The position numbers were made by a program, and so were the translations under genes. DNA of 23,840 nucleotides from a virus: positions 1-23,840 of IMG/VR virus record IMGVR_UViG_3300031269_000088; one strand, written 5' to 3'. A model generated the notes under the pieces. That model saw nothing but the letters and a program-made list of their open reading frames with translations, did not search any database and had not been told where the DNA came from. Positions 6,337 through 23,840 of this stretch are shown here, one piece after another (the stretch's first letter is position 1; every line of letters begins with the position of its first letter).

Positions 6337-6695
6337 ACACAGCAGAAGTAACCAACGAGCAGCTCGTCGAGCTGTATGAGTCAGGCCTCAGCTTCGAGGG
6401 TGTGGCCAGGGCTGTTGGGACCCTCAATGCCCACCAAGTCAGCAATCGGCTGCATACCGAGGCAGCATTCGGCTATGTCGTCATCCGCGCTGCGCGCGAC
6501 CACTGGCATCGACGGAGCGCGAAGTCAGCACGGCCGAAGAAGGCCCGTGTTGCTGGTCCGCCAGAGCTGGTCGCGGTGACCTGGGCGGTTCAGTGCCTGG
6601 ACCTGCCGATTGAGGTGGCGCGTCGTCACGTGGGAAGGATGATGCAGCCGGCGGCATGGCAGGTGCTGGCGAGACTTAAGGGGGGTGCGGTATGA
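6333..6695 (+). CDS. Hypothetical 120-aa protein with HTH-like N-terminus
   Basis: The start at 6333 overlaps the preceding stop (ATGA). The N-terminal 35 residues (TNEQLVELYESGLSFEGVAR, then AVGTLNAHQVSNRL) read like a homeodomain-type helix-turn-helix, with helix, glycine turn and recognition helix. A basic linker follows (RRSAKSARPKKAR), then a hydrophobic helix (VAVTWAVQCLDLPIEVARRHV). A small DNA-binding protein is plausible. I cannot place it in a family or name a target. Confidence 0.6.
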   Translation: MNTAEVTNEQLVELYESGLSFEGVARAVGTLNAHQVSNRLHTEAAFGYVVIRAARDHWHRRSAKSARPKKARVAGPPELVAVTWAVQCLDLPIEVARRHVGRMMQPAAWQVLARLKGGAV

Positions 6696-7306
6696 AAGAG
6701 CGACCAATACTATTCAACGGGTCAATGGTCCTCGCCATCCTCGAAGGGCTAAAGACCCAGACGAGGCGGCCCATGAAGCGACCTGCCGGGCTCAGTGACA
6801 GTGATTTCTCCGACCTTGTCGCGTGGATGATGCGGACCGGCTCATGCAATGTGGACGTTGCAGGCCCTGCGGATGGAAGGCAACGCGTCGTTCGGTGCCC
6901 GTTCGGCAAGGCTGGCGACCGGCTGTGGGTACGGGAGGCGCACTTTATCGAGGGCACCCACCGGGGCAGTCACGACAAACCGAACCATCTCCGATGGGGC
7001 GCGTACTGGGGGTTCTCCGGCACCGTGTCACCTGATGGCATGAGGATCGCTTACCACCGAGTAGGATGGGACTGCCATGACAGCGACGTGAGGTGGCGCC
7101 CCTCCATCCACATGCCCCGCTGGGCATCACGCATCTCGCTGGAGGTCACGCGTGTCCGGCTCCAGCGCCTCCACGACATCACTGAGGAGGACGCGGCCGC
7201 GGAGGGGTTTAAGAGTCGTCAGGCATTCCTTGACGGGTGGGCGGGCATCTACGGGCCAGATAATGAGCTCGTGTGGGTCGGCGACTTTGCGAGGGTGACA
7301 CCATGA
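6692..7306 (+). CDS. Phage ASCH-domain protein
   Basis: This 204-aa protein matches a widespread phage protein type that carries an ASCH (PUA-like) fold, thought to bind RNA or modified nucleotides. Typical landmarks are KERPILFNGSMVLAILEGLK at the N-terminus followed by TQTRRPMK, then CPFGKAGDRLWVREAHF (about residues 70-86). Further on come WRPSIHMPRWASRISLEVTR (about 132-151), LQRLHDITEEDAAAEGF, and the closing VWVGDFARV. No residue of the usual pattern is obviously missing. The start at 6692 overlaps the previous stop in the ATGA manner, and AAGGGGGT lies upstream. Its exact role in phage infection is not established. Confidence 0.85.
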   Translation: MKERPILFNGSMVLAILEGLKTQTRRPMKRPAGLSDSDFSDLVAWMMRTGSCNVDVAGPADGRQRVVRCPFGKAGDRLWVREAHFIEGTHRGSHDKPNHLRWGAYWGFSGTVSPDGMRIAYHRVGWDCHDSDVRWRPSIHMPRWASRISLEVTRVRLQRLHDITEEDAAAEGFKSRQAFLDGWAGIYGPDNELVWVGDFARVTP

Positions 7307-12739: not shown

Positions 12740-13987
12740 TCACTCCGGGATAAGCGACCAGCCGAATGGCCGGTACAGGTCTGAGGTGTCGGCGACGGTC
12801 CACATCCGGGCCCGGTCGCTGCCGATGCGCACGCGGTGGATGCGATTGCCGCCGCCGGTCGCGGCGACGTAAACGAACTGGCCGTCGCAGGTGATGTCGA
12901 CGATGCCGGAGGCGACTGACACCTGGTCGACCTCGATGCCGGTTAGCTTGTCGAGCGCTCGCAGGATGCTGCCGCCGGCGCGCACGGCGTAGACGTAGCG
13001 CTGGTCGACAGTGATGTGGGTGTAGCCGTCGTCCGCTCCTGAGCCTCGCTGCCAGATCGTCGTGTTGAGGCTGAATGGAGCGACGCAGCGCAAGGAGTTT
13101 GCGCCTCCAGAGACGGATACTGCGAGGTACAGTCGCTCGCCATCGTGCGCGAGCTTGGTGGGCCCATTGGTGACGTTGGTCTGGGTCTGCTCAGGGGTCG
13201 CGGATTCGGTGGTGAATCGGCGCAGCTTGTAGTCGGCGCCGTCGAGGCCGGACGACCAGACTCGGCCACCGTGCATGACGATGTCATACGTCTCTGTCTC
13301 GTCGAAGCGCCAGACCTGTCCGCCGTCATCGACATCGGCCACACGGATGCTGGCGTCATTGGTGTCGAGGCCGTTCGCCGAGGGTCCGCAAATCGCGAAC
13401 CGTGAGCCCCTGATTGCGGCACCGCTGATGGGTCCACCGAACGTGGTCACGAGGGTGGAGCCGACCGTGCCGTCGACCTCGTAGACCTTCGCCTCGCCGC
13501 CTGCGGAGACGATGACGATGTTCGCGCCGTCGGTCGCGCATGGTCCTTCGTTTCCCGTGCCACCGAAAGCGCTGACCCATTCCTCGGCGCCGTCCGCACG
13601 GGCGAGGCCAATCAACTCCGAGTCGCGACTGGCGTACACTCGACGAGCATCGGCGCACACGCCACGCGGTACCGAGTCCAGCGTCGCCAGCACGGACGAT
13701 CCGCGAGCGGTGGCAGGAACGCGGACAATCGCTGGGTCGCCAGCCACGAGCGTGCCGGCATCTGCCAGAAAATGCACGCCCTCAAGCGCGTCGACCGTTG
13801 GCGTGTGGCCGTCGGCGAGATAGGCGAGCCACTCGTTGGCCTCGTGGAGTACGCCGTTGTGGCCCTTGCTCGTAAGGACTTGCGTCACGTATCCAGTCGC
13901 GCGCAATCCAGCCGAGGGCCGGTCGATGCTGGAGTCGGAGTCTGCCCACCTCGGGTCGTGTGTTGGCTTGGCAATGGGGGTGGTCAT
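12740..13987 (-). CDS. Tail-fibre protein with beta-propeller-like repeats
   Basis: The 415-aa product has an N-terminus typical of phage fibre adaptors (HDPRWADSD, IDRPSAGLRATGYVT, NEWLAYLADGHTPT). From about residue 75 it shows repeated beta blades such as GVCADARRVYASRDSELIGL, GADYKLRRFTTESA, THITVDQRYVYAVRAGGSIL and GIVDITCDGQFVYVAATGGG. These look like PQQ/YVTN-type propeller blades. A propeller head could bind host surface glycans or proteins. The start at 13987 overlaps the gpI-like stop by one base. Fibre role is from position and N-terminus; the propeller is from pattern. Confidence 0.68.
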   Translation of the reverse strand: MTTPIAKPTHDPRWADSDSSIDRPSAGLRATGYVTQVLTSKGHNGVLHEANEWLAYLADGHTPTVDALEGVHFLADAGTLVAGDPAIVRVPATARGSSVLATLDSVPRGVCADARRVYASRDSELIGLARADGAEEWVSAFGGTGNEGPCATDGANIVIVSAGGEAKVYEVDGTVGSTLVTTFGGPISGAAIRGSRFAICGPSANGLDTNDASIRVADVDDGGQVWRFDETETYDIVMHGGRVWSSGLDGADYKLRRFTTESATPEQTQTNVTNGPTKLAHDGERLYLAVSVSGGANSLRCVAPFSLNTTIWQRGSGADDGYTHITVDQRYVYAVRAGGSILRALDKLTGIEVDQVSVASGIVDITCDGQFVYVAATGGGNRIHRVRIGSDRARMWTVADTSDLYRPFGWSLIPE

Positions 13988-14562
13988 CAGAAGCTCTCAG
14001 CGAGGACGCCACGGTCAAAACCGAGGGTCGGGACGTCGAAGGTGAAGGAGGTCGGTCGTGCGTCGACGATCGGGTCGATGCGCACGCTGGCAGGCGCCGC
14101 CGACTCAAGGTCAGCGCGGACGGCCTGCCGCTGCAGCGCCGGGAGCGGAATCGGTGAATCCCGACGCGCCTCAAGCGTGACGGCTCCCGGCGTGACAGCC
14201 CATGTCACTGGCTGGCCGGGTGCGGTGAGCTGGCGCAGGATGGCGCGCAGCTCGTCGAGGGTTCCACGGCTCCGCTGAATCTGGAGCTGCGTGGCGATGG
14301 CGCCAGAATACTCCGGGTCGCCGCGCCCGGAGCGTGGCTCGCCGATGATGCCGCCCCACCGGTCGAGGCCTGCGCCGGTGCTGCCGCTCGGGCCACGTTC
14401 GACGACGTCGAGAATGCGCGTGGCGGCGGCGAAGGTGTCGGCCACGAGTGACGCGGCGGCACGGGTCAGCGCCATCATCACCGGGCCCGACAGTGAGGGC
14501 AGCAGGAGCGACACCGCAGTGGAGGCGAGGTCGGTGGGTGGTGAGTAGTCCGGCGTGGTCAT
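13987..14562 (-). CDS. Baseplate/tail protein I-like (DUF2612-like)
   Basis: This 191-aa protein fits the gpI or DUF2612-type connector that joins the baseplate wedge to tail fibres. The hallmark region is AGLDRWGGIIGEPRSGRGDP followed by EYSGAIATQLQIQRSRGTLD and ELRAILRQL (about residues 64-113), which matches the family pattern LDxxGxxxGxxR...D...YxxxI...SrGT. In contractile phages this gene normally follows J directly. Here it lies more than 3 kb from J because plus-strand genes intervene. The ATG at 14562 has no good ribosome-binding site, and the DNA just upstream belongs to the inserted region, so its own expression signals are unclear. Confidence 0.75.
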   Translation of the reverse strand: MTTPDYSPPTDLASTAVSLLLPSLSGPVMMALTRAAASLVADTFAAATRILDVVERGPSGSTGAGLDRWGGIIGEPRSGRGDPEYSGAIATQLQIQRSRGTLDELRAILRQLTAPGQPVTWAVTPGAVTLEARRDSPIPLPALQRQAVRADLESAAPASVRIDPIVDARPTSFTFDVPTLGFDRGVLAESF

Positions 14563-14633: not shown

Positions 14634-15027
14634 CGGCGCTGGCGCGGGAGTTGGCGGCACTGCCTCGGTGAGCTGATTCGGGCCCGCTCAGCTTTTGTTC
14701 ATTTTCTTCGTTACATTTATTGACACGGGCGGCGAGTGGGTATAGAGACTCTCATCAAGGTGAAGGAACGGTCCTTCGCCACCAACCCACGGAGCACACC
14801 ATGAGCATCTCAGACGACTTCCGCACAGCCCGCGACACTCGGTCCTTCATCTACTGCGGCGACGAGCGCTGCACTTTCGCTGAGGCCATCGAGGACTTTG
14901 GCGGCGAGTGGATTGCTGACCACGGCGACTTTGAGCACGTCGCGGGCACACGTGAATTCGAGCGCGCCACCAAAGACGGGAAGGAGTATGGCATGTGGAC
15001 CGATGGAAACGGCTGGGTGGCCTTCCC
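14634..15027 (+). repeat. Direct repeat R1 (promoter, leader, small gene)
   Basis: This 394-nt unit is repeated at 15841-16247. The coding core 14828-15027 is identical to 16048-16247 except for one silent T/C change (14953 against 16173). The upstream part, including the promoter and leader hairpin, is highly similar with a few substitutions and a 1-nt indel. The two copies differ by 12 nt near the N-terminal codons. The copies flank the 235-aa gene. Confidence 0.92.
14720..14777 (+). promoter_or_regulatory. R1 promoter and leader hairpin
   Basis: TTGACA (14720-14725) and TATAGA (14741-14746) are separated by an unusually short 15-nt spacer. The AT-rich upstream tract (14693-14719) contrasts with the GC-rich surroundings. 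The leader carries GAAGGA (14762-14767), ACGG, TCCTTC (14772-14777), a hairpin or operator kept intact in the second copy. Confidence 0.6.
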
Positions 15028-15043
15028 GGTCACCCAAGACTGA
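14801..15043 (+). CDS. Small acidic protein, copy 1 (80 aa)
   Basis: The ATG at 14801 follows GGAG in a conserved leader. The product is acidic and compact, with an RSFIYCGDERCTFAEAIEDF stretch carrying two cysteines (CGDERC), then GGEWIADHGDFEHVAGTREF and an aromatic ending GMWTDGNGWVAFP. The second copy at 16009 is almost identical but has four extra N-terminal residues and a different tail. The fold is unknown; it reads like a small soluble alpha/beta protein. It has its own strong promoter and an inverted orientation relative to the tail genes. Together with the duplication this suggests a moron gene expressed independently of the late operon. Function unknown. Confidence 0.8.
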   Translation: MSISDDFRTARDTRSFIYCGDERCTFAEAIEDFGGEWIADHGDFEHVAGTREFERATKDGKEYGMWTDGNGWVAFPVTQD

Positions 15044-15087
15044 GCCACCCGACAGGCGGGCAGCCGGGTTCGAGCCCCAGCGGTGGC
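15044..15087 (+). other. tRNA T-arm-like stem-loop between copy 1 and the 235-aa gene
   Basis: GCCACC (15044-15049) pairs with GGTGGC (15082-15087). Inside lies GGGTTCGAGCCC (15066-15077), which fits the tRNA T-arm pattern. There is no D-arm or anticodon arm, so this is not a tRNA gene. It could be a remnant of a tRNA-derived recombination site or a chance structure. It has no counterpart after copy 2. Confidence 0.35.
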
Positions 15088-15121
15088 CTTGCGCAATTCA
15101 GCGCGGAAAGGGAGATGAGAG

Positions 15122-15829
15122 ATGACGACTATACTAAATGACACGATGATAAAAACAATGCATCGGATGGCCTGCGCATACGGGCACGAATGGTCATCAG
15201 TGATGACCCTCGCCGAGGCCTTCGGGCACGAGACAGACGACGCGCTCCGCGCCACCTTTGAGGCTCACCCTGATCGCGGCGAATGGCCCGGCGTTGGGCC
15301 GGCCGTGTCACATTTGACAATGACCGGGCGGACGGCGTGGAGCGTGAACGCTTATGTTAACAAGATGGAGATCACGGTGGCGCGTAAATTTCCTGACGGT
15401 GCCGGCGTCAATGACTGCGGCGGCGTCGACGTGATCTCCATCAATATAGACTTTGCGGATGGCGAGGTTGATTTAGAGATCGCCACCGGTGGCCCGGAAT
15501 GGGCGCGGGCAGAAGACCGGCACCGTGACGCGGCGTTCGTGGCGTTGACCGCCGCGTGCGGGGGCGGGAGTCTCCGACTCCTCGACGCCTACCAGGAGGC
15601 CGCTCGGCAACTTGCGCCGCCGGCCCTCCTGTCCGAGGAGTGGGGCGTCATGGCACCCTCGCGTGTCGCGTTCGGCCCGCCGATGACCGACCACCCTGAG
15701 CAGTCAGCCCGGATCAGCGTAGATGGTGTGGTTATGGCGGCGCTCGCGTCGTGCGGGACGGTCGACTGGCTCGTCCACTCCCCAGACGGGTGGCGATATT
15801 ACGGCATCCCTCAGGACCGAGCCGTATGA
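15122..15829 (+). CDS. Orphan 235-aa cargo protein
   Basis: The start at 15122 follows AAGGGAGATGAGAG. The first codons are AT-rich compared with the rest. I recognise no family. The N-terminal third is helical (MIKTMHRMACAYGHEWSSVM). The middle is beta-rich (AWSVNAYVNKMEITVARKF, then VDVISINIDFADGEVDLEIA). A helix with RHRDAAFVALTAACGGGSLR follows, and the end is TVDWLVHSPDGWRYYGIP. There is no signal peptide or membrane segment, so it is probably cytoplasmic. It lies between the two direct repeats and is probably co-transcribed with the first small acidic protein. Possibly an exclusion, defence or toxin-type function, but no catalytic motif supports that. Confidence 0.7.
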   Translation: MTTILNDTMIKTMHRMACAYGHEWSSVMTLAEAFGHETDDALRATFEAHPDRGEWPGVGPAVSHLTMTGRTAWSVNAYVNKMEITVARKFPDGAGVNDCGGVDVISINIDFADGEVDLEIATGGPEWARAEDRHRDAAFVALTAACGGGSLRLLDAYQEAARQLAPPALLSEEWGVMAPSRVAFGPPMTDHPEQSARISVDGVVMAALASCGTVDWLVHSPDGWRYYGIPQDRAV

Positions 15830-15840
15830 TGCGGAGGGGT

Positions 15841-16247
15841 CGGCGCTGGCGCAGGAGTTGGAGGCACTGCCCCGGTGAGCTGATTCGGGCGCGTTCAACC
15901 CTTGTTCATTTTCTTCGTTACATTTATTGACACGGGCGGCGAGTGGGTATAGATACATCTCATCAGGCTGAAGGAACGGTCCTTCGCCGCCAACCCACGG
16001 AGCACACCATGAGCATCTCAGACGCCCTCAACACCGCATTCAACACCGCCCGCGACACTCGGTCCTTCATCTACTGCGGCGACGAGCGCTGCACTTTCGC
16101 TGAGGCCATCGAGGACTTTGGCGGCGAGTGGATTGCTGACCACGGCGACTTTGAGCACGTCGCGGGCACACGCGAATTCGAGCGCGCCACCAAAGACGGG
16201 AAGGAGTATGGCATGTGGACCGATGGAAACGGCTGGGTGGCCTTCCC
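15841..16247 (+). repeat. Direct repeat R2 (promoter, leader, small gene)
   Basis: This is the second copy of the unit at 14634-15027. It begins 12 nt after the stop of the 235-aa gene, suggesting the junction was set by the duplication or by recombination. The coding core 16048-16247 differs from copy 1 at one silent base. Confidence 0.92.
15927..15985 (+). promoter_or_regulatory. R2 promoter and leader hairpin
   Basis: TTGACA (15927-15932), 15 nt, TATAGA (15948-15953), then GAAGGA (15970-15975), ACGG, TCCTTC (15980-15985). The hairpin and promoter hexamers are unchanged from copy 1, while surrounding leader bases differ. This hints at selection for these elements. Confidence 0.6.
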
Positions 16248-16269
16248 CCTTAAAACAACAGAAGCCTGA
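16009..16269 (+). CDS. Small acidic protein, copy 2 (86 aa)
   Basis: A near-duplicate of the 80-aa protein at 14801. The first five residues (MSISD) and the core from TARDTRSF to AFP are shared. The segment between them is longer here (ALNTAFN against DFR), and the tail is LKTTEA rather than VTQD. The stop overlaps the next ATG (TGATG at 16267-16271), so it is coupled to the 164-aa gene. The near-zero divergence of the core means recent duplication or gene conversion. Keeping both copies intact suggests that each serves its own downstream cargo, perhaps as a partner or antidote-like protein. That is speculation. Confidence 0.8.
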   Translation: MSISDALNTAFNTARDTRSFIYCGDERCTFAEAIEDFGGEWIADHGDFEHVAGTREFERATKDGKEYGMWTDGNGWVAFPLKTTEA

Positions 16270-16763
16270 TGCGGGTCGAGACTTCAGACGCGGACCTTGT
16301 CCTCATTGCGCTCTGGTCTCTCGTCGACCCGGACGAGGCCTGCGACCCTTCGCTCGGGTTGATGGGAGTTCGCGCTGGTCGCGTTGAGCTGGCGCGAGCG
16401 TGCGGAGCAGTTCGCCCGCTCAACCACCGGCACATCAACAATGCCTTGCGGGCGCTCGGCGGCGCGGGCGCTATCGACATTGCCGAGGAGGCGAAGAGGG
16501 GGCGAGGCGGCGCTGGGCTATACGAGCTGTTGATGCCGCCGCCGACGCTGCTGCGGTACCACCAGGAGGACGGTGAGACGAATCAGGCGCTGACTTGGCC
16601 GAGTTTGGTGTTTGAGGTGGTTCGCGGCATAGATGGGCTGGTCGCGCTGGCGGGTGGTGGAGCGGTCACCGGTGAGCAGCTGGCGGATGAGGTGGTTGCT
16701 GGCGGGCCATTGGCGCTGCTGTATCGGGCGGTTCGGCTGGCTGGCTGGGCGGGGTTGGCGTGA
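16269..16763 (+). CDS. 164-aa cargo protein, possible winged-helix protein
   Basis: Starts at 16269, overlapping the previous stop by one base, so it is probably made together with acidic protein copy 2. Residues about 35-90 suggest a winged helix: AGRVELARACGAVRPLNHRH, then INNALRALGGAGAIDIAEEA, then a basic Gly-rich loop KRGRGGAGLYELL that could be a wing. The C-terminal half is hydrophobic and helical (WPSLVFEVVRGIDGLVALAG, then GGPLALLYRAVRLAGWAGLA), perhaps membrane-associated or a dimer interface. A DNA-binding regulator is possible. No family is recognised. It is followed 40 nt later by the lipoprotein gene. Confidence 0.6.
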   Translation: MRVETSDADLVLIALWSLVDPDEACDPSLGLMGVRAGRVELARACGAVRPLNHRHINNALRALGGAGAIDIAEEAKRGRGGAGLYELLMPPPTLLRYHQEDGETNQALTWPSLVFEVVRGIDGLVALAGGGAVTGEQLADEVVAGGPLALLYRAVRLAGWAGLA

Positions 16764-16803
16764 GCAGGTCGCACCCACTATACGTCTACCCATGGAGGAC
16801 CCC

Positions 16804-17748
16804 TTGAATCGCCACACCCTACCGGCCCTCGCGGCCGTCCTGCTCTTCGCCTGCGCCGACGACGCCACGGGCCCGGTCACCAGCTTCTCGCCCACCCAAC
16901 TGGACGCCGGCGACACCGCGAGCACTGATCTGGGCACCGTCCCGGACAGCGTCGTGGACCAATCGGACACCGATGACCAAGAATTGAACCACTCAGACGC
17001 CCAGACAGATGGCGGCTCAGCGCCTGATTTGGACCAGTCGGACGCCGTTGACCAAGAATTGAACCACTCGGATGCCGAACCCGACACCGGCCCCCAGAGC
17101 CTCTGCACCAGCCCCTTCGACTCTGCCCCGATGGAAGACCGCGAGGCGCTCCAGACGCTGGCGTGGGAATGCCTGGTCGACTGCGGGCGTGATGTCGCCC
17201 CGGATGACGTGCTGTCCTGCACAACGTCGTGCGTCGATGACGGGTCGGAGCTGACGCCCGGGTGCTCGACGTGTCATGCCGAGCTTGCGGAGTGCGGGTT
17301 GAACGAGGGGTGCTTTGAGGATTGCGCCGAGGATGCGACTGGGTGGGAGTGTGCGCACTGCCAGTGGACGGAGTGCCGGGCGGAGTTCTTTGAATGTGCG
17401 GGGGTGCCGGCTTGGAGAACGGAGCCGGGGTGTGAGGAAGGCCAAGGCTACCGACACAACCTTGGTTGGGAGTGTGCGGGCACGACGGACGTCATCGACG
17501 GCGATGAGACACTTGAGGAATGCCTCGAAGGCCGGGTCAGCGAATCGCGAAGTGACGAATGTCGAGACTGCGTCGTGGACTACAATCTGGAGGTCGCGGC
17601 GGCGTGCCCCGCCTGCCTCGAGGACTCCTGGTGCAAGACCGCTTGCGTCAGCTGCATTGCGGAATCGTCGGCATCCCTCTTGGAGCGAGCGCGGTTCTGT
17701 TCCGGCTCTGGTCCTACATCGATGTCCGACGACGACCTGTGTGACTAG
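16804..17748 (+). CDS. Cysteine-rich lipoprotein (cargo), TTG start
   Basis: GGAGG (16794-16798) lies 5 nt before the TTG at 16804, and this start gives a clean lipoprotein signal MNRHTLPALAAVLLFAC with the lipidated Cys at residue 17. The ATG at 16792 overlaps the ribosome-binding site and is less likely. After the Cys comes an Asp/Ser/Thr-rich linker with two copies of a 15-residue repeat (DQSDxxDQELNHSDA; 16957-17001 and 17032-17076). A domain with about 26 more cysteines in pairs follows (CSTCHAELAEC, CAHCQWTEC, CIAESS), probably disulphide-bonded outside the cytoplasm. A host-surface lipoprotein made by the prophage, for instance blocking phage adsorption or DNA entry, is a reasonable hypothesis. 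Its TAG stop shares CTAG with the J stop. Confidence 0.8.
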   Translation: MNRHTLPALAAVLLFACADDATGPVTSFSPTQLDAGDTASTDLGTVPDSVVDQSDTDDQELNHSDAQTDGGSAPDLDQSDAVDQELNHSDAEPDTGPQSLCTSPFDSAPMEDREALQTLAWECLVDCGRDVAPDDVLSCTTSCVDDGSELTPGCSTCHAELAECGLNEGCFEDCAEDATGWECAHCQWTECRAEFFECAGVPAWRTEPGCEEGQGYRHNLGWECAGTTDVIDGDETLEECLEGRVSESRSDECRDCVVDYNLEVAAACPACLEDSWCKTACVSCIAESSASLLERARFCSGSGPTSMSDDDLCD

Positions 17749-18941
17749 GCGAACGTCACTTGCGTGTCGGCATCGGCAATCGTCGCCTTCTCACGATAGG
17801 TCATGACCACGCCGGTGGTGCCGAACGAGCCCGACACTTTCGCCAGCTCAATCAGGGAGGCGTCGGACACCCCGTCAACGGCGACGATGGCCGCGACCAG
17901 TCGGGCGTAGCTGACAGTCTCGCCCACCTGCAGCGCGTTTACGAACGCGGCAACAGCGGTCCGGATCGCGGTCGTGTACTCAGCCGCACTGCCCGACTCC
18001 ACGCTCAACCCCGTGATCTGCACCTTCATCGGCACAGCATCTGCCACGTTCCAGCGCAGCGTCCTCTCAGTCCCGCTGTCGTCGACCGTCTCCCACGTCT
18101 GGGTGCCAACCGTCTCCCCAACCCCAGCAGGCTGGTGGAACAACAGCACCGGCCCCACACGCGTCGCGTCGATCGACGGGTAGATGATGGCCTCAAACGA
18201 GTGAGCAGGCCGCCCCTCGCCGTCTGGGATGTCCTGCCGGTTCGAGATGACGTCCACAGCTGTGACGCCCGGCACTGCGCGGAGGGATGCGCGGATCGCG
18301 TTCTCGGTGCCTCGGCCAGCGACGAAGCGTGAGTCGGTGGCCCGGTACCGGAGTCGCAGCTCTGGATCTGTCTCGGTGAGTCGGCCCGGCGAGTAAGGCG
18401 CAGCAACCGCCGCCGAGTCGAGCCCGAAGATGGGGTTCACAATCGCGACCGGGTCGACGATGGGCCAGTCGCCCGGACTAACCGAGGTGCACAGCCCCTC
18501 GACCGTGCCGCCCACGCCAATCGTGACAGCCTCGTTCAAGGCGTACAACCCGAGAGCTGGGCCTCGGAATCGCGTGCCGGCTGGGATGACGATGCCAGCG
18601 GTACCGGTCAGGGTCAGGCGCACGAGCGACGGAGCTGCAGCGAGTCGCGTCACACGCACCAGCCCGGCTGCTGCATCAAGCGCGAGGCCTGTGGCGGTGT
18701 TTGCCTGCATCTGCTGCCAGAGGCGCTCCATCACGCCATAGGTTGAGTCCATGACGTTCGCCTGCGCCGCCACCAAGATATAGAGCACGTTCGTCGGGTT
18801 GCGGACCTGTCTCCAGTCGGCGATGCCGGCTTGCTGCAGCTCGATCTCGAACTGGTCCATGTAGCGCTCTATGAGGTCGGCGAGCGGTGGGCGGACAAAG
18901 CCGGTGTCGGTATAGCCCCAGGTGGATGGGTCGGTCTGCAT
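17745..18941 (-). CDS. Baseplate J family protein (gp47-like wedge)
   Basis: The 398-aa product matches the baseplate J/gp47 family. It has an N-terminal helical part (LADLIERYMDQFEIELQQAG, then VLYILVAAQANVMDSTYGVM). The central family core runs LALDAAAGLVRVTRLAAAPS, LTGTAGIVIPAGTRF, then ETDPELRLRYRATDSRFVAG and RGTENAIRASLRAVPGVTAV. A C-terminal part follows with AVAAFVNALQVGETVSYARL. It forms the wedge around the tail hub in contractile tails. The ATG at 18941 follows GGAG, whereas the frame upstream to 19070 runs through a dyad and is not coding. It is separated by 245 nt from the W-like gene and by a plus-strand island from gpI, both unusual. Confidence 0.88.
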   Translation of the reverse strand: MQTDPSTWGYTDTGFVRPPLADLIERYMDQFEIELQQAGIADWRQVRNPTNVLYILVAAQANVMDSTYGVMERLWQQMQANTATGLALDAAAGLVRVTRLAAAPSLVRLTLTGTAGIVIPAGTRFRGPALGLYALNEAVTIGVGGTVEGLCTSVSPGDWPIVDPVAIVNPIFGLDSAAVAAPYSPGRLTETDPELRLRYRATDSRFVAGRGTENAIRASLRAVPGVTAVDVISNRQDIPDGEGRPAHSFEAIIYPSIDATRVGPVLLFHQPAGVGETVGTQTWETVDDSGTERTLRWNVADAVPMKVQITGLSVESGSAAEYTTAIRTAVAAFVNALQVGETVSYARLVAAIVAVDGVSDASLIELAKVSGSFGTTGVVMTYREKATIADADTQVTFA

Positions 18942-18969
18942 GGTGTCTCCAGAATCTGTACGTGCCCGG

Positions 18970-19013
18970 CATGAACACTTGTGCGGCGCAACATGCGTCC
19001 ACCGCACAAGTGT
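18970..19013. promoter_or_regulatory. 12-bp dyad and shared 18-nt motif upstream of J
   Basis: ACACTTGTGCGG (18975-18986) and CCGCACAAGTGT (19002-19013) are exact reverse complements with a 15-nt spacer. The left arm lies within an 18-nt motif (18970-18987) that recurs at 10992-11009 with 16 of 18 matches. It lies about 30-70 nt upstream of the J start and is a candidate operator or activator site for separate control of J. Confidence 0.6.
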
Positions 19014-19059
19014 GCACTGCGAGCGCGCAAAATTGGAAGCGTGGCGCACCATGCCGTCG

Positions 19060-19090
19060 GCACCCGCCACAGGGGCAGGCGGGCGGGTGC
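19060..19090. terminator. GC-rich hairpin between the W-like gene and J
   Basis: GCACCCGCC (19060-19068) and GGCGGGTGC (19082-19090) form a perfect 9-bp stem with a 13-nt loop, 97 nt after the stop of the W-like gene on the minus strand. No T-run follows, so it is at best a weak or Rho-assisted terminator or an RNA-stability element. Confidence 0.35.
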
Positions 19091-19186
19091 GTCAGGACAG
19101 GGCTGCAGACTCAATGTGGAGACATCATCGGCAGCGAGAGCGATCGTGCACTGCGGAGGATCTCGATGTCCAGCGTTTTGTTCGAG

Positions 19187-19639
19187 CTACAGTGATGACA
19201 ACCCAGCACCCAACCCAAGCTGTCCACTCGGCCCACTCATCAACAGATAGAACCGCCCAGCCTGCAACACATCCCCCGGCAGCGCCTCGCCGGCGACAGT
19301 CGCCGCCGTGATCACTCCCGCATCCGTCGATACCTCGAACGACACGCGCAGCACCCGCGACGCCGCATCGAGCACCAGCGTCACCGACACCACGCGCAGC
19401 ACCCCTGGCACCGCCAACAGCAGGCGCCGCAAGTCCGACTCCACCAGGCGCAGGTCCGGCGCCTTCTTCAGCCAGGTCTCGAAGTACCGCGGCCCGAAGT
19501 CACGGTCGAGCCACCACGTGCCCGCAGCCGTCCGGAGGGCGACAAGGATGCGCTGGGCCACCAGCCGCACCGGGTCGGTTTCGAGCACCGCCGGCAACAC
19601 CGGGTCCATCGTTATCCAGTCGAGTCGGATGTCACTCAT
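19187..19639 (-). CDS. gp25/W-like sheath initiator
   Basis: This 150-aa protein follows the pattern of the GPW/gp25 or DUF2634-like baseplate proteins. It has an N-terminal DPVRLVAQRILVALRTAAGT, then WWLDRDFGPRYFETWLKKAP, then VESDLRRLLLAVPGVLRVVS and VLRVSFEVSTDAGVI. These proteins sit at the base of the sheath and start its polymerisation. It lies between the spike and J genes, the standard position. The start overlaps the preceding stop (ATGA at 19636-19639). Family assignment rests on pattern and order. Confidence 0.72.
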   Translation of the reverse strand: MSDIRLDWITMDPVLPAVLETDPVRLVAQRILVALRTAAGTWWLDRDFGPRYFETWLKKAPDLRLVESDLRRLLLAVPGVLRVVSVTLVLDAASRVLRVSFEVSTDAGVITAATVAGEALPGDVLQAGRFYLLMSGPSGQLGLGAGLSSL

Positions 19640-20229
19640 GAGTCCACCAGGGTTGTGAGTTCAGCGGCGAGCGTGACGAGGCTCGACGCCGAACTCAGAG
19701 GGTCAGGGCCAGCGGTCGTCGTGGAGAGCAGCAACACCAGCTCCTGCAACTTGGCGACGAGGTCCACCGCCGGCGAGCCCAGCCGCAGCTTGCCATCCTC
19801 AGTGACAACAAGCTCAATCGCCGGCGCTCCGGAGGACGGAGCAAACCCAGCAAAGGCGACCGCATCCGACAGCGACGCCCGCCTCGAGGAGCGACCGCCA
19901 GCTGCAGCGCCTGCCGTCTTCCACCCGCCGATGTCTCGAGACCCGAACGCCAGCCACACTTGGTCGCCCTCGGCAAGCGGCCAGCTCATGCGGAACCCGC
20001 CACCAGCCGGATACACCACCGGCACATCGACGATGACAGGTAGCGAGGACTCCTCGCCCGTCTCCGGGTCCACTCGCCGAATCAGCGGTCGCACCGAGCA
20101 CCGCGCCGGCGGCCCCTCGGCGAACGACACCACCTCTGCCGGCATGCCCGTCTGCATCGACGCAGTCGCACCTCCGACGATGCCGCTCATCATGTCAGAC
20201 AGTGAGGGTAGTTGCAGGTCATCGGCCAT
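19636..20229 (-). CDS. Gp138-type membrane-puncturing spike protein
   Basis: The 197-aa product matches the Gp138 spike family. It shows MPAEVVSFAEGPPARCSVRP, then LIRRVDPETGEESSLPVIVD, then VPVVYPAGGGFRMSWPLAEG with DQVWLAFGSRDIGGWK, and a short beta-helix-like C-terminal part (AIELVVTEDGKLRLGSPAVD). The spike sits at the tip of the hub and breaches the outer membrane, pointing to a Gram-negative host. The ATG at 20229 lies 8 nt after GGGAG. The ATG at 20235 is only 2 nt from it and is less likely. Confidence 0.82.
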   Translation of the reverse strand: MADDLQLPSLSDMMSGIVGGATASMQTGMPAEVVSFAEGPPARCSVRPLIRRVDPETGEESSLPVIVDVPVVYPAGGGFRMSWPLAEGDQVWLAFGSRDIGGWKTAGAAAGGRSSRRASLSDAVAFAGFAPSSGAPAIELVVTEDGKLRLGSPAVDLVAKLQELVLLLSTTTAGPDPLSSASSLVTLAAELTTLVDS

Positions 20230-20231
20230 CG

Positions 20232-21071
20232 TCATCGCTCCCTGAGCAGTAGGTCACTGACCCAGTCTCCGCCGTGGGTATCACCCTGATGGGTGACCTC
20301 TGCCACGGTGTAGATACCAGTGTACCGCTCGCTGCGCAGGTCGACGACTCGGCCGGGACGCAGAGGAGCGTAGAGCTGCACCCGCGCCTCCAGCCCCTGG
20401 ATGGTCGTGCGCCTGCCCGTCTGTCGCTTGCGCGGCTTTGGGTATCCGATGAGTCCCGTGTCCGGACTGGCAACGAGTGCACGATCATCGAGCACGCCGT
20501 TCGGTGGCACCAGCACAGCGTCGCCGTCTTCTATCATCCAGCTCCAACCGCTCGGCAGAATCTCCGTGATGACGAGGTCGAGACTGCCGTCGAGGGCGCC
20601 GACATAGCGCTCCTGCCATGATTCATCAGTGGCGGCTGCATTCTCACGCAGACCCAAAGTGCCGCCGACAATCTGCTGCAGCACCTCAAGCCGGGTCTGC
20701 TCCTCGCTGGTCAGGGACACTCGTGTCGACCGGCGCACACGCTCGCCGTCCGCAACCTGCATCGTCGAGACCCAGTCAACGCGCTGGCGGTCGTGCTCGA
20801 CGCGAATGATGTCGCCCTTGATGACGATGGGAATGGCGCCGCCGCTGCGGTCAGCGTCATAGCCAGCACGCAGAGTGACCTTGGCGTCGTCGCGATCGAG
20901 CCATGCACGAGAATCTGCCGATAGGTTGTAGACCCTCGCCTCGCCGGGCTCTGGTCGTCCACCGCGCTTCAGGGTGATTTTGAACGCGATGCGCAGGTCC
21001 GACCAGACTCGGGCCTCGCCGGTGCCTATCTCGACCTGCAGCTCCGCCCTGCGAAGGAAGAGCTCAGTCAT
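20232..21071 (-). CDS. Baseplate hub protein (gpD/gp27-like)
   Basis: This 279-aa protein starts with RRAELQVEIGTGEARVWSDL, then IAFKITLKRGGRPEPGEARV, then YNLSADSRAWL and VTLRAGYD, a pattern common in hub proteins of small contractile phages. It ends with TTIQGLEARVQLYAPLRPGR then VVDLRSERYTGIYTVAEVTH, typical of hub C-terminal barrels. The hub connects the tail tube to the spike encoded downstream. The start at 21071 overlaps the previous stop (ATGA). Assignment is by pattern and by its place directly before the spike gene. Confidence 0.75.
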   Translation of the reverse strand: MTELFLRRAELQVEIGTGEARVWSDLRIAFKITLKRGGRPEPGEARVYNLSADSRAWLDRDDAKVTLRAGYDADRSGGAIPIVIKGDIIRVEHDRQRVDWVSTMQVADGERVRRSTRVSLTSEEQTRLEVLQQIVGGTLGLRENAAATDESWQERYVGALDGSLDLVITEILPSGWSWMIEDGDAVLVPPNGVLDDRALVASPDTGLIGYPKPRKRQTGRRTTIQGLEARVQLYAPLRPGRVVDLRSERYTGIYTVAEVTHQGDTHGGDWVSDLLLRER

Positions 21072-21457
21072 GCGGCCCCACTGGCGAACGCCTCGAGGTC
21101 AGCGACAGGGATGTAGATGAGCTGCACCGTGGAGCCGAGCGCCTCGTACGGGATGGTCGGTTCTGCGCTGTCGCCATTGATGGCCTGCTGCTCTGTGCGG
21201 GCAGGTGCGGAGGCGCCCACGACAATCATCTCGCCCGGCGGACGCACTGGCGCCACCCAGCCCTGCAGCAGCAGCGTCTCCGGCTGCAGAGGTCGACGTG
21301 TCAGCAGTGGCGTGCCGTCGATCGTCCGCAGCGACAGGTACCACGCCTCTGGCAGGTACGACCATTCGAGCTGCAGCCGGTACCGGACGCCATCGATGGC
21401 AACGGTCTGCTCCTGCCTGGCCGCATTGCGGGTGATGGGGATGCGCTGGGTGGTCAT
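21068..21457 (-). CDS. Baseplate plug-like protein (DUF6983-like)
   Basis: This 129-aa protein resembles the small plug proteins of simple contractile baseplates (cyanophage Pam3 gp18-type). It has VAIDGVRYRLQLEWSYLPEA, then WYLSLRTIDGTPLLTRRPLQ, and a later VQLIYIPVADLEAF. Such proteins sit inside the hub channel before contraction. The order Dit-like, plug, hub, spike supports this. The start overlaps the preceding stop (ATGA at 21454-21457). Confidence 0.68.
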   Translation of the reverse strand: MTTQRIPITRNAARQEQTVAIDGVRYRLQLEWSYLPEAWYLSLRTIDGTPLLTRRPLQPETLLLQGWVAPVRPPGEMIVVGASAPARTEQQAINGDSAEPTIPYEALGSTVQLIYIPVADLEAFASGAA

Positions 21458-22089
21458 GGCAGCCCCAGAAACGAGCGAACGAAGGAGGCATCGAGGGGCG
21501 TGGCGCTGCCGTCGCCGTAGATCTCGTTGTAGAGCGCGGTCTCGTTGCGCTCCAGCTCAGCGTCCGCTGCCGCATCGTCGCCGGCCGTGCCGTCGCCTGC
21601 CGCCTGCGCGCCAGTGTCGATGGTCTGCGAGATGCGCCGCTCGTTGACCGGCAGTGGCGGAATCTGGACGGTCTGACGGCTGGCGAACCGGAGCCGCCGG
21701 AGGGTAACACGGGGCACGCATGCCTCGCCGGTGCGGCTGTCGGCGCTCTCGTCGATGCCGGTGATGAGCCAGTCGTCTGCGTCGACCAGCTCGGAGATGA
21801 TGGTCACGAGCTCGCGCGCTGCCCACATCTCCTGCAGCGTGCCCCGGAACTGCCGGTCGCGGTCATCGCTGGAGGCCTCACCGTTGAGTGGCGAGGTCGT
21901 TGCGATGAGGTCGAGCGTCAGCTCTGCCTGACGCAGGCGTGCGTGGTCGCTGGTGCTCGCACCGTCCTCGACCTCGTTCTCGGTGACGTCTGACTTGAGG
22001 CTGTAGCTCTCGGTGATGGTGGCATCCCAGACGAGCTCGCGCGTGAGCGAGACCATCGATGCGCCGGATGTCGCAATGGGTCGTGCCAT
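21454..22089 (-). CDS. Dit-like baseplate protein
   Basis: This 211-aa protein carries the N-terminal signature of Dit-like proteins of small myophages: ITESYSLKSDVTENEVEDGA then STSDHARLRQAELTLDLIAT. The middle part has EMWAARELVTIISELVDADD then WLITGIDESADSRTGEACVP and VTLRRLRFASRQTVQ, which resembles a tail-tube or LysM-like fold. The acidic Ala/Gly-rich stretch near residues 160-185 looks like a linker. The start follows GGAGGAGT, 3 nt after the tape-measure stop. Confidence 0.74.
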   Translation of the reverse strand: MARPIATSGASMVSLTRELVWDATITESYSLKSDVTENEVEDGASTSDHARLRQAELTLDLIATTSPLNGEASSDDRDRQFRGTLQEMWAARELVTIISELVDADDWLITGIDESADSRTGEACVPRVTLRRLRFASRQTVQIPPLPVNERRISQTIDTGAQAAGDGTAGDDAAADAELERNETALYNEIYGDGSATPLDASFVRSFLGLP

Positions 22090-22092
22090 CCG

Positions 22093-23840
22093 TTACTCCT
22101 CCAGCCGAGCGCGCTCGAATGCCGGCTCGAGCGCTGCGGCCATGAGCGACGGGAGTTCGCGCTGGAGCCGTCGTGCGACCTGGTCGGCGACGTCGGGTGA
22201 GTCGACAGTGAGTTGCAGGAGCACTTCGGCGGGCTGGACATCGATGGTGACGTTGCGCTGGGTGTTCTGGTTCGCCGGCATCATCGCTTGCGCCATCGAT
22301 GCGCCGCCTCCGGACTCGGCATCCACGCCACGCATCCACTGCCACCACGTGCGCTCTGTGCCTGCGCTGGTGATGGGTGCGCCGTCTGCGCCGGTCAGCT
22401 GACGCGACGCCGAAGCGCCGCCCATCATGCCGCCGGCGAGTCGGTTGCCTGCGTCCGTGGAATCGGAGAAGTCGCCGGTGACCATGCGACCGATCATCGC
22501 CAGAGGGTGGCGGCCGATTGTGTTCCCGACTGTGTTGCTCATCAGCCAGTCGAGGTATGGGCGAATCTCCTCCGGCACCATTGTTCGGAGCGCCTCGCGG
22601 ATAACATCGATCGCATCCACCACCGGTGCGGCGAAGTGGTCGTAGGCCATGCTCGCAAGTTGGCGAATGCCGGCCCAGATGGACTGAATGTCTGCCCACA
22701 TGAGGTCGAGCGCATCCTTGCCGTGGTCGCGAAGGTCGAGGAAGAACCGTGCGAGGTCGCCCATGGCTCCGTCCGCTTCCCCATTGGCGTCGACGAATGT
22801 GCCGATGACCGAGTCCTTGCCGGCGAGCCAGCCCATGAAGTCGTCGATGATGAAGGCGGCACCAATGAATGCGGCACCCACCGCAAGCTGAACAGCGAGC
22901 GCCTCCAGCGCAATGAGCCCCATCGACAGGCTGACCTGCCGGAGCAGGTGGACCATGCGCACCAGAGTAGACCCAGCGACCCACGTGCCAATCCATGACA
23001 GCCCCTGCTGGACCTTGTCCTGGTTGTCAGCGAGCCATTGCATGCCCATCGCCGCGAGACGGACCGCACGCGAGAGAGCTCGACCGATGACCGTGCTCAG
23101 GTCGCCGTTGGTGTCGAGCAGCGCGGTCGTGCTCTGCACCAGCCCGGTCACTGCATCGCGGAGGCCAGCGTCGCCAACGGAAACGAGGAACTGGTAGACG
23201 CTATCGCCGAGCATTCCCATTTGGCCGGACATCGTCGCGGCCATCCGCTCCATGCCTCCGGCGAAACGACCCTGCCCGAGCTCCTCGACGAACGCTGAAA
23301 TCTCCTCGAATGAGGAACCAATCTCGCGCATCTCTCCATCGATCATGGCGGAGAGCACACCCTGGCGCGAGCTGAAGTTTAGCCCGAATCGAGCGAACAG
23401 CACATCAAGCCGCTCGGTGTTGCCGATCGTGCCGCCGCTGATGGCATCGATGAGCGTCTGCACGTCCGTCTGCACAGCAGCGGCGGAGTCGCCGAGCGCG
23501 GTCATACGCTCAGTTGTGGGGTCCAGCCCTTGCGCACGCAGCATCTGGTATGCGGCGGTCACCTGCGCCAAAGAGTCTGGAGACAGCTGTGCGAACTCCT
23601 GCACGAACGCCATCGCCTGCGCGGTGCCCTCAGCGCTACCAGTGACCAGGTCAAGGGAGGCGGCGAGGGTCTGGGCCTCCGAGTTGGCCTGATACCACGC
23701 GTTGGCCGCGAGCCCCGCAGCGATACCAGCCCAGAGCCCCAGACTCATCCGCTGCTGAGCCGCAGTCACCTCAGCGACTCGATGCTGGTAGCGGTCGAGC
23801 TGGTTGTCGACTCGCACGATGGAGCGCTCGTCGATGTCGA
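22093..23840 (-). CDS. Tail tape-measure protein (partial, cut by window edge)
   Basis: The frame stays open to the right edge, so the N-terminus is missing; at least 582 residues are visible. It is Ala-rich and helical, with AFVQEFAQLSPDSLAQVTAA and RAQGLDPTTERMTALGDSAA, then IDAISGGTIGNTERLDVLFA, a typical tape-measure start. A central hydrophobic region follows (VQLAVGAAFIGAAFIIDDFM). The C-terminal part contains the polar linker TVGNTIGRHPLAMIGRMVTG and ends with NVTIDVQPAEVLLQLTVDSP. Tape measures set tail length and often form the DNA channel. The order just before the Dit-like gene supports this. No lytic transglycosylase or peptidase motif is visible in the part present. Confidence 0.82.
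   Translation of the reverse strand, partial: DIDERSIVRVDNQLDRYQHRVAEVTAAQQRMSLGLWAGIAAGLAANAWYQANSEAQTLAASLDLVTGSAEGTAQAMAFVQEFAQLSPDSLAQVTAAYQMLRAQGLDPTTERMTALGDSAAAVQTDVQTLIDAISGGTIGNTERLDVLFARFGLNFSSRQGVLSAMIDGEMREIGSSFEEISAFVEELGQGRFAGGMERMAATMSGQMGMLGDSVYQFLVSVGDAGLRDAVTGLVQSTTALLDTNGDLSTVIGRALSRAVRLAAMGMQWLADNQDKVQQGLSWIGTWVAGSTLVRMVHLLRQVSLSMGLIALEALAVQLAVGAAFIGAAFIIDDFMGWLAGKDSVIGTFVDANGEADGAMGDLARFFLDLRDHGKDALDLMWADIQSIWAGIRQLASMAYDHFAAPVVDAIDVIREALRTMVPEEIRPYLDWLMSNTVGNTIGRHPLAMIGRMVTGDFSDSTDAGNRLAGGMMGGASASRQLTGADGAPITSAGTERTWWQWMRGVDAESGGGASMAQAMMPANQNTQRNVTIDVQPAEVLLQLTVDSPDVADQVARRLQRELPSLMAAALEPAFERARLEE

Follow-up and report, generated by a model that had tools for sequence, protein, structure and literature searches.

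Why does a phage carry a cysteine-rich lipoprotein gene among its baseplate genes, where did this gene come from, and what might its product do? These questions are raised by a single gene in the window, by which we mean the whole 23,840-base viral record that was analysed. The gene and its parts are as follows.

16794..16798, plus strand: Shine-Dalgarno sequence GGAGG, 5 nt ahead of the TTG start and overlapping an alternative in-frame ATG
16804..17748, plus strand: cysteine-rich lipoprotein gene, 314 aa, TTG start, TAG stop at 17746-17748
16804..16854, plus strand: lipoprotein signal peptide, predicted by a pattern test, ending in the lipobox LLFAC with the lipidated Cys as residue 17
16855..17097, plus strand: acidic Asp/Ser/Thr linker, aa 18-98, recognised by composition
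16955..17016, plus strand: linker repeat copy 1, from direct-repeat comparison
17030..17091, plus strand: linker repeat copy 2, 81% identical to copy 1
17104..17403, plus strand: domain A, aa 101-200, the 14-Cys lipoprotein domain of Myxococcota, with a 52-bit profile score and all invariant columns
17425..17706, plus strand: second cysteine-rich stretch, aa ~208-301, with a cysteine order partly parallel to that of domain A

A sequence-only reading of this DNA had proposed a TTG start and a clean lipobox, and both were borne out, as the TTG at 16804 opens the 314-aa frame with GGAGG 5 nt before it, and the N-terminus, MNRHTLPALAAVLLFAC, combines LLFAC (C17) with a hydrophobic core (mean hydropathy 2.3) and an n-region containing Arg/His. 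Starts were assessed with a mechanical test for a lipobox, hydrophobic core, basic n-region and Shine-Dalgarno sequence, and among 838 start candidates in the window solely TTG 16804 had lipobox, hydrophobic core and Shine-Dalgarno sequence together, with zero such starts in 20 Markov-resampled windows. An in-frame ATG at 16792-16794, four codons upstream of the TTG (MEDPLNRH...), is a possible alternative start. The GC content at the three codon positions (0.64/0.53/0.77) is like that of the neighbouring phage genes, which indicates that the frame is coding.

The 81-residue linker contains 18 Asp, 9 Ser and 9 Thr, and its near-repeat, DQSDTDDQELNHSDAQ / DQSDAVDQELNHSDAE, is encoded by a 62-nt direct repeat with 81% identity, in agreement with the proposed Asp/Ser linker and internal repeat. 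Likewise, the approximate figure of 26 further cysteines proved to be exact, with 27 in total including C17. Structure prediction of the lipoprotein from its single sequence was poor (mean pLDDT 42).

We found no match to the lipoprotein in Pfam, NCBIfam, PHROGs, PDB or plasmids, and no relative in 50,697 phage records. The protein search that had been suggested for the Cys-rich domain did return matches in Myxococcota genomes, our entry to these being an unrelated phage-protein search that led to L084, a Polyangiaceae genome. BLAST-type matches were obtained in 14 of 379 Myxococcota genomes, with E down to 1e-9 per genome, and the matched host proteins all contain a domain of ~97 residues. 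Most are lipoproteins composed of a lipobox, a low-complexity linker and one to three domain copies, an arrangement of lipobox and linker ahead of the domain that the window protein has too; the strict lipobox test was passed by 24 of 38 host proteins, with several of the others cut by contig ends.

A domain profile built from the Myxococcota hosts, with the window protein left out, scored aa 101-200 at 52 bits, while none of 1000 full shuffles of the lipoprotein was reported at E<10 and the best of 1000 shuffles keeping the cysteine positions reached 30 bits. The invariant columns of the family alignment comprise 14 Cys, Asp6 and the final Gly, and the phage domain keeps every one of these at ~30% identity to the host copies. 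Searching with the profile (E <= 1e-8) detected the domain in 74 of 379 Myxococcota genomes, compared with 0/299 in Pseudomonadota, 0/199 in Planctomycetota and 1/198 in Desulfobacterota (74/379 versus 1/696 control genomes; Fisher p 1e-34), where the phylum label of each genome set is that of the loci used as set centres. Loci that carry the domain in Myxococcota include L093, L094, L097, L106 and L107. The sole genome outside this phylum (G901:C21, Desulfobacterota; L295-L298) carries four or more copies within a single 1332-residue open frame, and transfer or a misplaced genome may be the reason.

Like the Myxococcota lipoproteins at L093, L094, L097 and L107, the phage protein has a lipobox, an acidic or low-complexity linker and a ~97-aa domain, in which 14 ordered cysteines end in C[SA]G and the invariant columns are retained. 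Unlike them, it lies in a phage, has one additional residue between C164 and C170, and contains a second, poorly matching cysteine-rich half. This second half (aa 208-301) scores 6-10 bits against the domain profile, which is below significance; since the host family includes tandem arrangements, this half may represent a second copy that has decayed. By sequence comparison the 14-Cys lipoprotein domain is an uncatalogued family, present in none of Pfam, NCBIfam and PHROGs. The Myxococcus disulfide repeat TIGR02232 is also a cysteine-rich module of Myxococcota; it differs in that it has no match above cut-off in the window, and the NCBIfam search of the lipoprotein gave none either.

Because the core domain is found almost only in Myxococcota, the virus probably took the gene from a Myxococcota host, and we consider it very probable from these comparisons that the protein is a captured Myxococcota-type lipoprotein moron. 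The sequence-only reading had taken it for a surface lipoprotein of host type that the phage had captured, and had seen in its composition a hint of host lineage; the same-architecture lipoproteins with a homologous domain in 74/379 genomes, set against the control phyla, support both, the lineage at phylum level. A tree nested the phage domain among host domains, subject to long-branch caution, and its pairing of the phage domain (P0001) with L093 joins two long branches and is no proof of a specific donor. The host loci L093 and L132 are chromosomal in appearance, not prophage. As the baseplate J protein is 28-33% identical to that of Myxococcota prophages and other phages are equally close, the host of this phage is inferred from the lipoprotein alone.

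The host family also bears on what the gene might be for. It is multi-copy, with up to seven matches per genome, among ordinary chromosomal lipoproteins, and the domain occurs in larger multi-domain host proteins, all of which points to a module for surface binding in general and less to a device against phages. The captured lipoprotein could therefore be a lysogenic-conversion gene that serves the host in adhesion, prey contact, ligand or metal binding, or surface protection. We regard such a use as rather unlikely, though a serious competitor, and the position of the gene beside baseplate and fibre genes instead recalls known exclusion lipoproteins.

The position of the gene was described in the sequence-only reading as within a baseplate operon but in the opposite direction. 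The minus-strand tail genes of the window encode tape measure, LysM-type, hub, gp25-like, baseplate J, gpI-like and fibre-like proteins, the names LysM-type and gpI-like being our own reading of PHROG matches. Between the J stop at 17745 and the gpI-like start at 14562 lies a 3.2 kb plus-strand cassette of five ORFs, as listed here with its flanking genes.

13987..14562, minus strand: gpI-like baseplate gene, on the far side of the cassette, from PHROG matches
14634..15027, plus strand: duplicated block copy 1, with an AT-rich stretch, promoter-like site, leader and small ORF
14720..14746, plus strand: promoter-like TTGACA-15-TATAGA copy 1, inferred by eye
14801..15043, plus strand: small ORF first copy, MSISDDFRTARD..., 80 aa (MSISD...), with relatives only in the overlapping contig
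15122..15829, plus strand: 235-aa ORF, for which family searches gave no match
15841..16247, plus strand: duplicated block copy 2, sharing 93% identity with copy 1
15927..15953, plus strand: promoter-like TTGACA-15-TATAGA copy 2, inferred by eye, upstream of the two ORFs leading up to the lipoprotein gene
16009..16269, plus strand: small ORF second copy, MSISDALNTAFNTARD..., recognised by sequence
16269..16763, plus strand: 164-aa ORF, whose start overlaps the preceding stop (TGATG) and for which no family was matched
17745..19070, minus strand: Baseplate_J (PF04865) gene, convergent with the lipoprotein gene

Thus the strand and the surroundings were correctly described, but the lipoprotein gene is not a lone gene within the operon, being the last of five plus-strand ORFs (small ORF, 235-aa ORF, second small-ORF copy, 164-aa ORF, lipoprotein) in an inserted, oppositely transcribed cassette. 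Only 40 nt separate the stop of the 164-aa ORF from the lipoprotein start, and the lipoprotein and J stop codons interlock in CTAG. The duplicated block is ~400 bp long and its two copies are 1.2 kb apart. An automatic promoter scan of the window found none by its rules, and the 15-nt spacing of the two promoter-like sites is outside the range of that scan.

The window and the Myxococcota prophage L307 have gpI-like genes that match the same PHROGs, and in the Myxococcota prophages L307 and L308, whose baseplates are related to that of the window, the J and gpI-like genes overlap; since the corresponding genes are split in the window, being 3.2 kb apart, the cassette is an insertion, or 'moron'. 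No integrase or repressor was identified within the 23.8-kb fragment. Elsewhere in the window, the gene at 6692-7306 (plus strand) is a relative of P1 PmgT (phrog_874), whose protein family is found very widely among the phages and prophages of numerous phyla.

A gene inside the baseplate cluster might encode a virion protein, such as an accessory of the baseplate or fibre whose coding strand happens to differ. We think this very improbable, since the gene is on the strand opposite to the entire tail cluster, its lipoprotein export signal and many cysteines suit an exported protein, and its relatives are bacterial lipoproteins, with none in the 50,697 phage records.

A second contig, IMGVR_UViG_3300031216_000220, matches window positions 15050-23840 with nine mismatches, all after 23703, so that the junction between J and the lipoprotein gene is present in two contigs, although these may not be independent. 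The nine mismatches between the window and this contig (L002) are at 23704-23835, within the last 140 bases, and such a cluster resembles variation between strains or an effect of the assembly end. In 6-peptide scans for the lipoprotein, genome and viral contigs returned only the overlapping contig. DNA patterns based on the exact cysteine spacing were run against IMG/VR, and after profile rescoring no other phage member was present among the matches listed; these patterns recover 17/46 (10-element) or 32/46 (7-Cys) of the host copies, equivalent to 37-70%, and because they miss many host copies, the absence of further phage members in IMG/VR is weak evidence.

That one phage only is known as a carrier would suit a passive hitchhiker, whether as recently acquired host DNA that serves no selected role or as host and phage sequence joined in the assembly, and selection on the lipoprotein is not measurable because the overlapping contig is nearly identical. 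Several features nevertheless make a hitchhiker improbable: the codon-position GC does not differ from that of the phage genes, an unbroken frame follows a strong Shine-Dalgarno sequence, the stop interlocks with that of J and the same J junction recurs in the second contig. Furthermore, the domain has diverged far from the host copies yet has lost none of its invariant residues.

Myxococcota also have a class of lipoproteins that is often on mobile elements, the SitA proteins of Myxococcus xanthus, whose sitAI genes are always in one operon (PMC8546572). The phage gene could by this likeness encode a prophage-borne lipoprotein toxin that one myxobacterium passes to another by outer-membrane exchange. 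SitA, however, ends in a nuclease at its C-terminus and has its immunity gene next to it, and the phage lipoprotein has neither: the next gene downstream is the convergent baseplate J with its interlocking stop, Pfam and NCBIfam searches of the lipoprotein gave no nuclease or other toxin domain, and the cysteine-rich domain forms the C-terminus of many host proteins too. Given the invariable sitAI operon, the lack of an immunity gene and of a toxin domain disfavours a SitA-type toxin, which we consider highly unlikely.

We return to the lipoprotein as a moron, and as an overall account we give about even chances to a Myxococcota-type envelope lipoprotein that is the cargo of a contractile-tailed phage and alters the cell surface to the benefit of that phage. 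Its kind, a phage lipoprotein moron, is ordinary, and its content is unusual, as a nearly Myxococcota-private, uncatalogued disulfide domain is carried on a phage. As for function, superinfection exclusion, which the sequence-only reading had also raised, is our best single guess, held at slightly below even odds, and it is drawn from the analogy of layout and gene position with known exclusion lipoproteins. No known exclusion-protein family was matched by the lipoprotein in Pfam, NCBIfam, PHROGs or the phage records.

The lipoprotein Ltp of the Streptococcus thermophilus phage TP-J34 has a lipid anchor, a serine-rich spacer and a repeat domain, and excludes phages (PMC3952083). It resembles our protein in its lipid anchor, spacer of small polar residues and folded domain region, and in being a moron; it differs in belonging to a Gram-positive system and lying in the lysogeny module, and searches of the phage libraries gave no sequence similarity. 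Similarly, Llp jams FhuA and is encoded beside a receptor-binding gene (PMC9586334). Llp of phage T5 and Cor of T1/phi80 are, like the candidate described here, phage lipoproteins (both of the outer membrane) encoded near receptor-binding genes, but they are small, single-domain proteins that act on TonB-dependent receptors; no sequence relation to it was found, and neither was found with a 14-Cys domain.

The mechanism that we propose would begin with the cassette promoter, which would drive the lipoprotein gene against the late tail transcript. As the cassette would then be crossed by an antisense transcript, production of the lipoprotein is more plausible at times when the tail genes are silent, namely during early infection or lysogeny. 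From established biology, the protein would be exported by Sec and then lipidated at C17, and its cysteines would pair as disulfides outside the cytoplasm, with the acidic linker probably keeping the domain at a distance from the membrane. In that position it would most likely change the cell surface in favour of the phage, and might mask or jam a phage receptor, resulting in superinfection exclusion as with Ltp, Llp and Cor. In a bolder version, which we judge unlikely and put a little lower than host service, the phage would have turned a disulfide domain nearly private to Myxococcota into a surface shield, in which a copy of a host protein acts as decoy or receptor mask, is silenced late by antisense tail transcription and represents an exclusion lipoprotein of a new fold class.

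Surface-altering phage lipoproteins are known from enteric and Gram-positive hosts, and the present candidate comes from Myxococcota, which are predators whose phages are little sampled. It provides a clear example, open to testing, of how a phage takes over a surface module of its host, and with the 14-Cys family in about a fifth of the sampled Myxococcota genomes, the domain could be used as a lineage marker for the hosts of orphan metagenomic phages.

Two further cysteine-rich lipoproteins were seen near phage tail genes in Myxococcota. In one genome a homologue of baseplate J is located ~13 kb away from a 599-aa lipoprotein with 89 cysteines (L321; G329:C171:27355-29154, minus strand). In the other (G048:C33), L307:5228-5725 (plus strand) encodes a lipoprotein with lipobox IGGC, an acidic linker and ~15 Cys in a different spacing, immediately following the fibre-like gene in a tail cluster that resembles a prophage, and on the opposite strand, and this may be a parallel case to the window lipoprotein.
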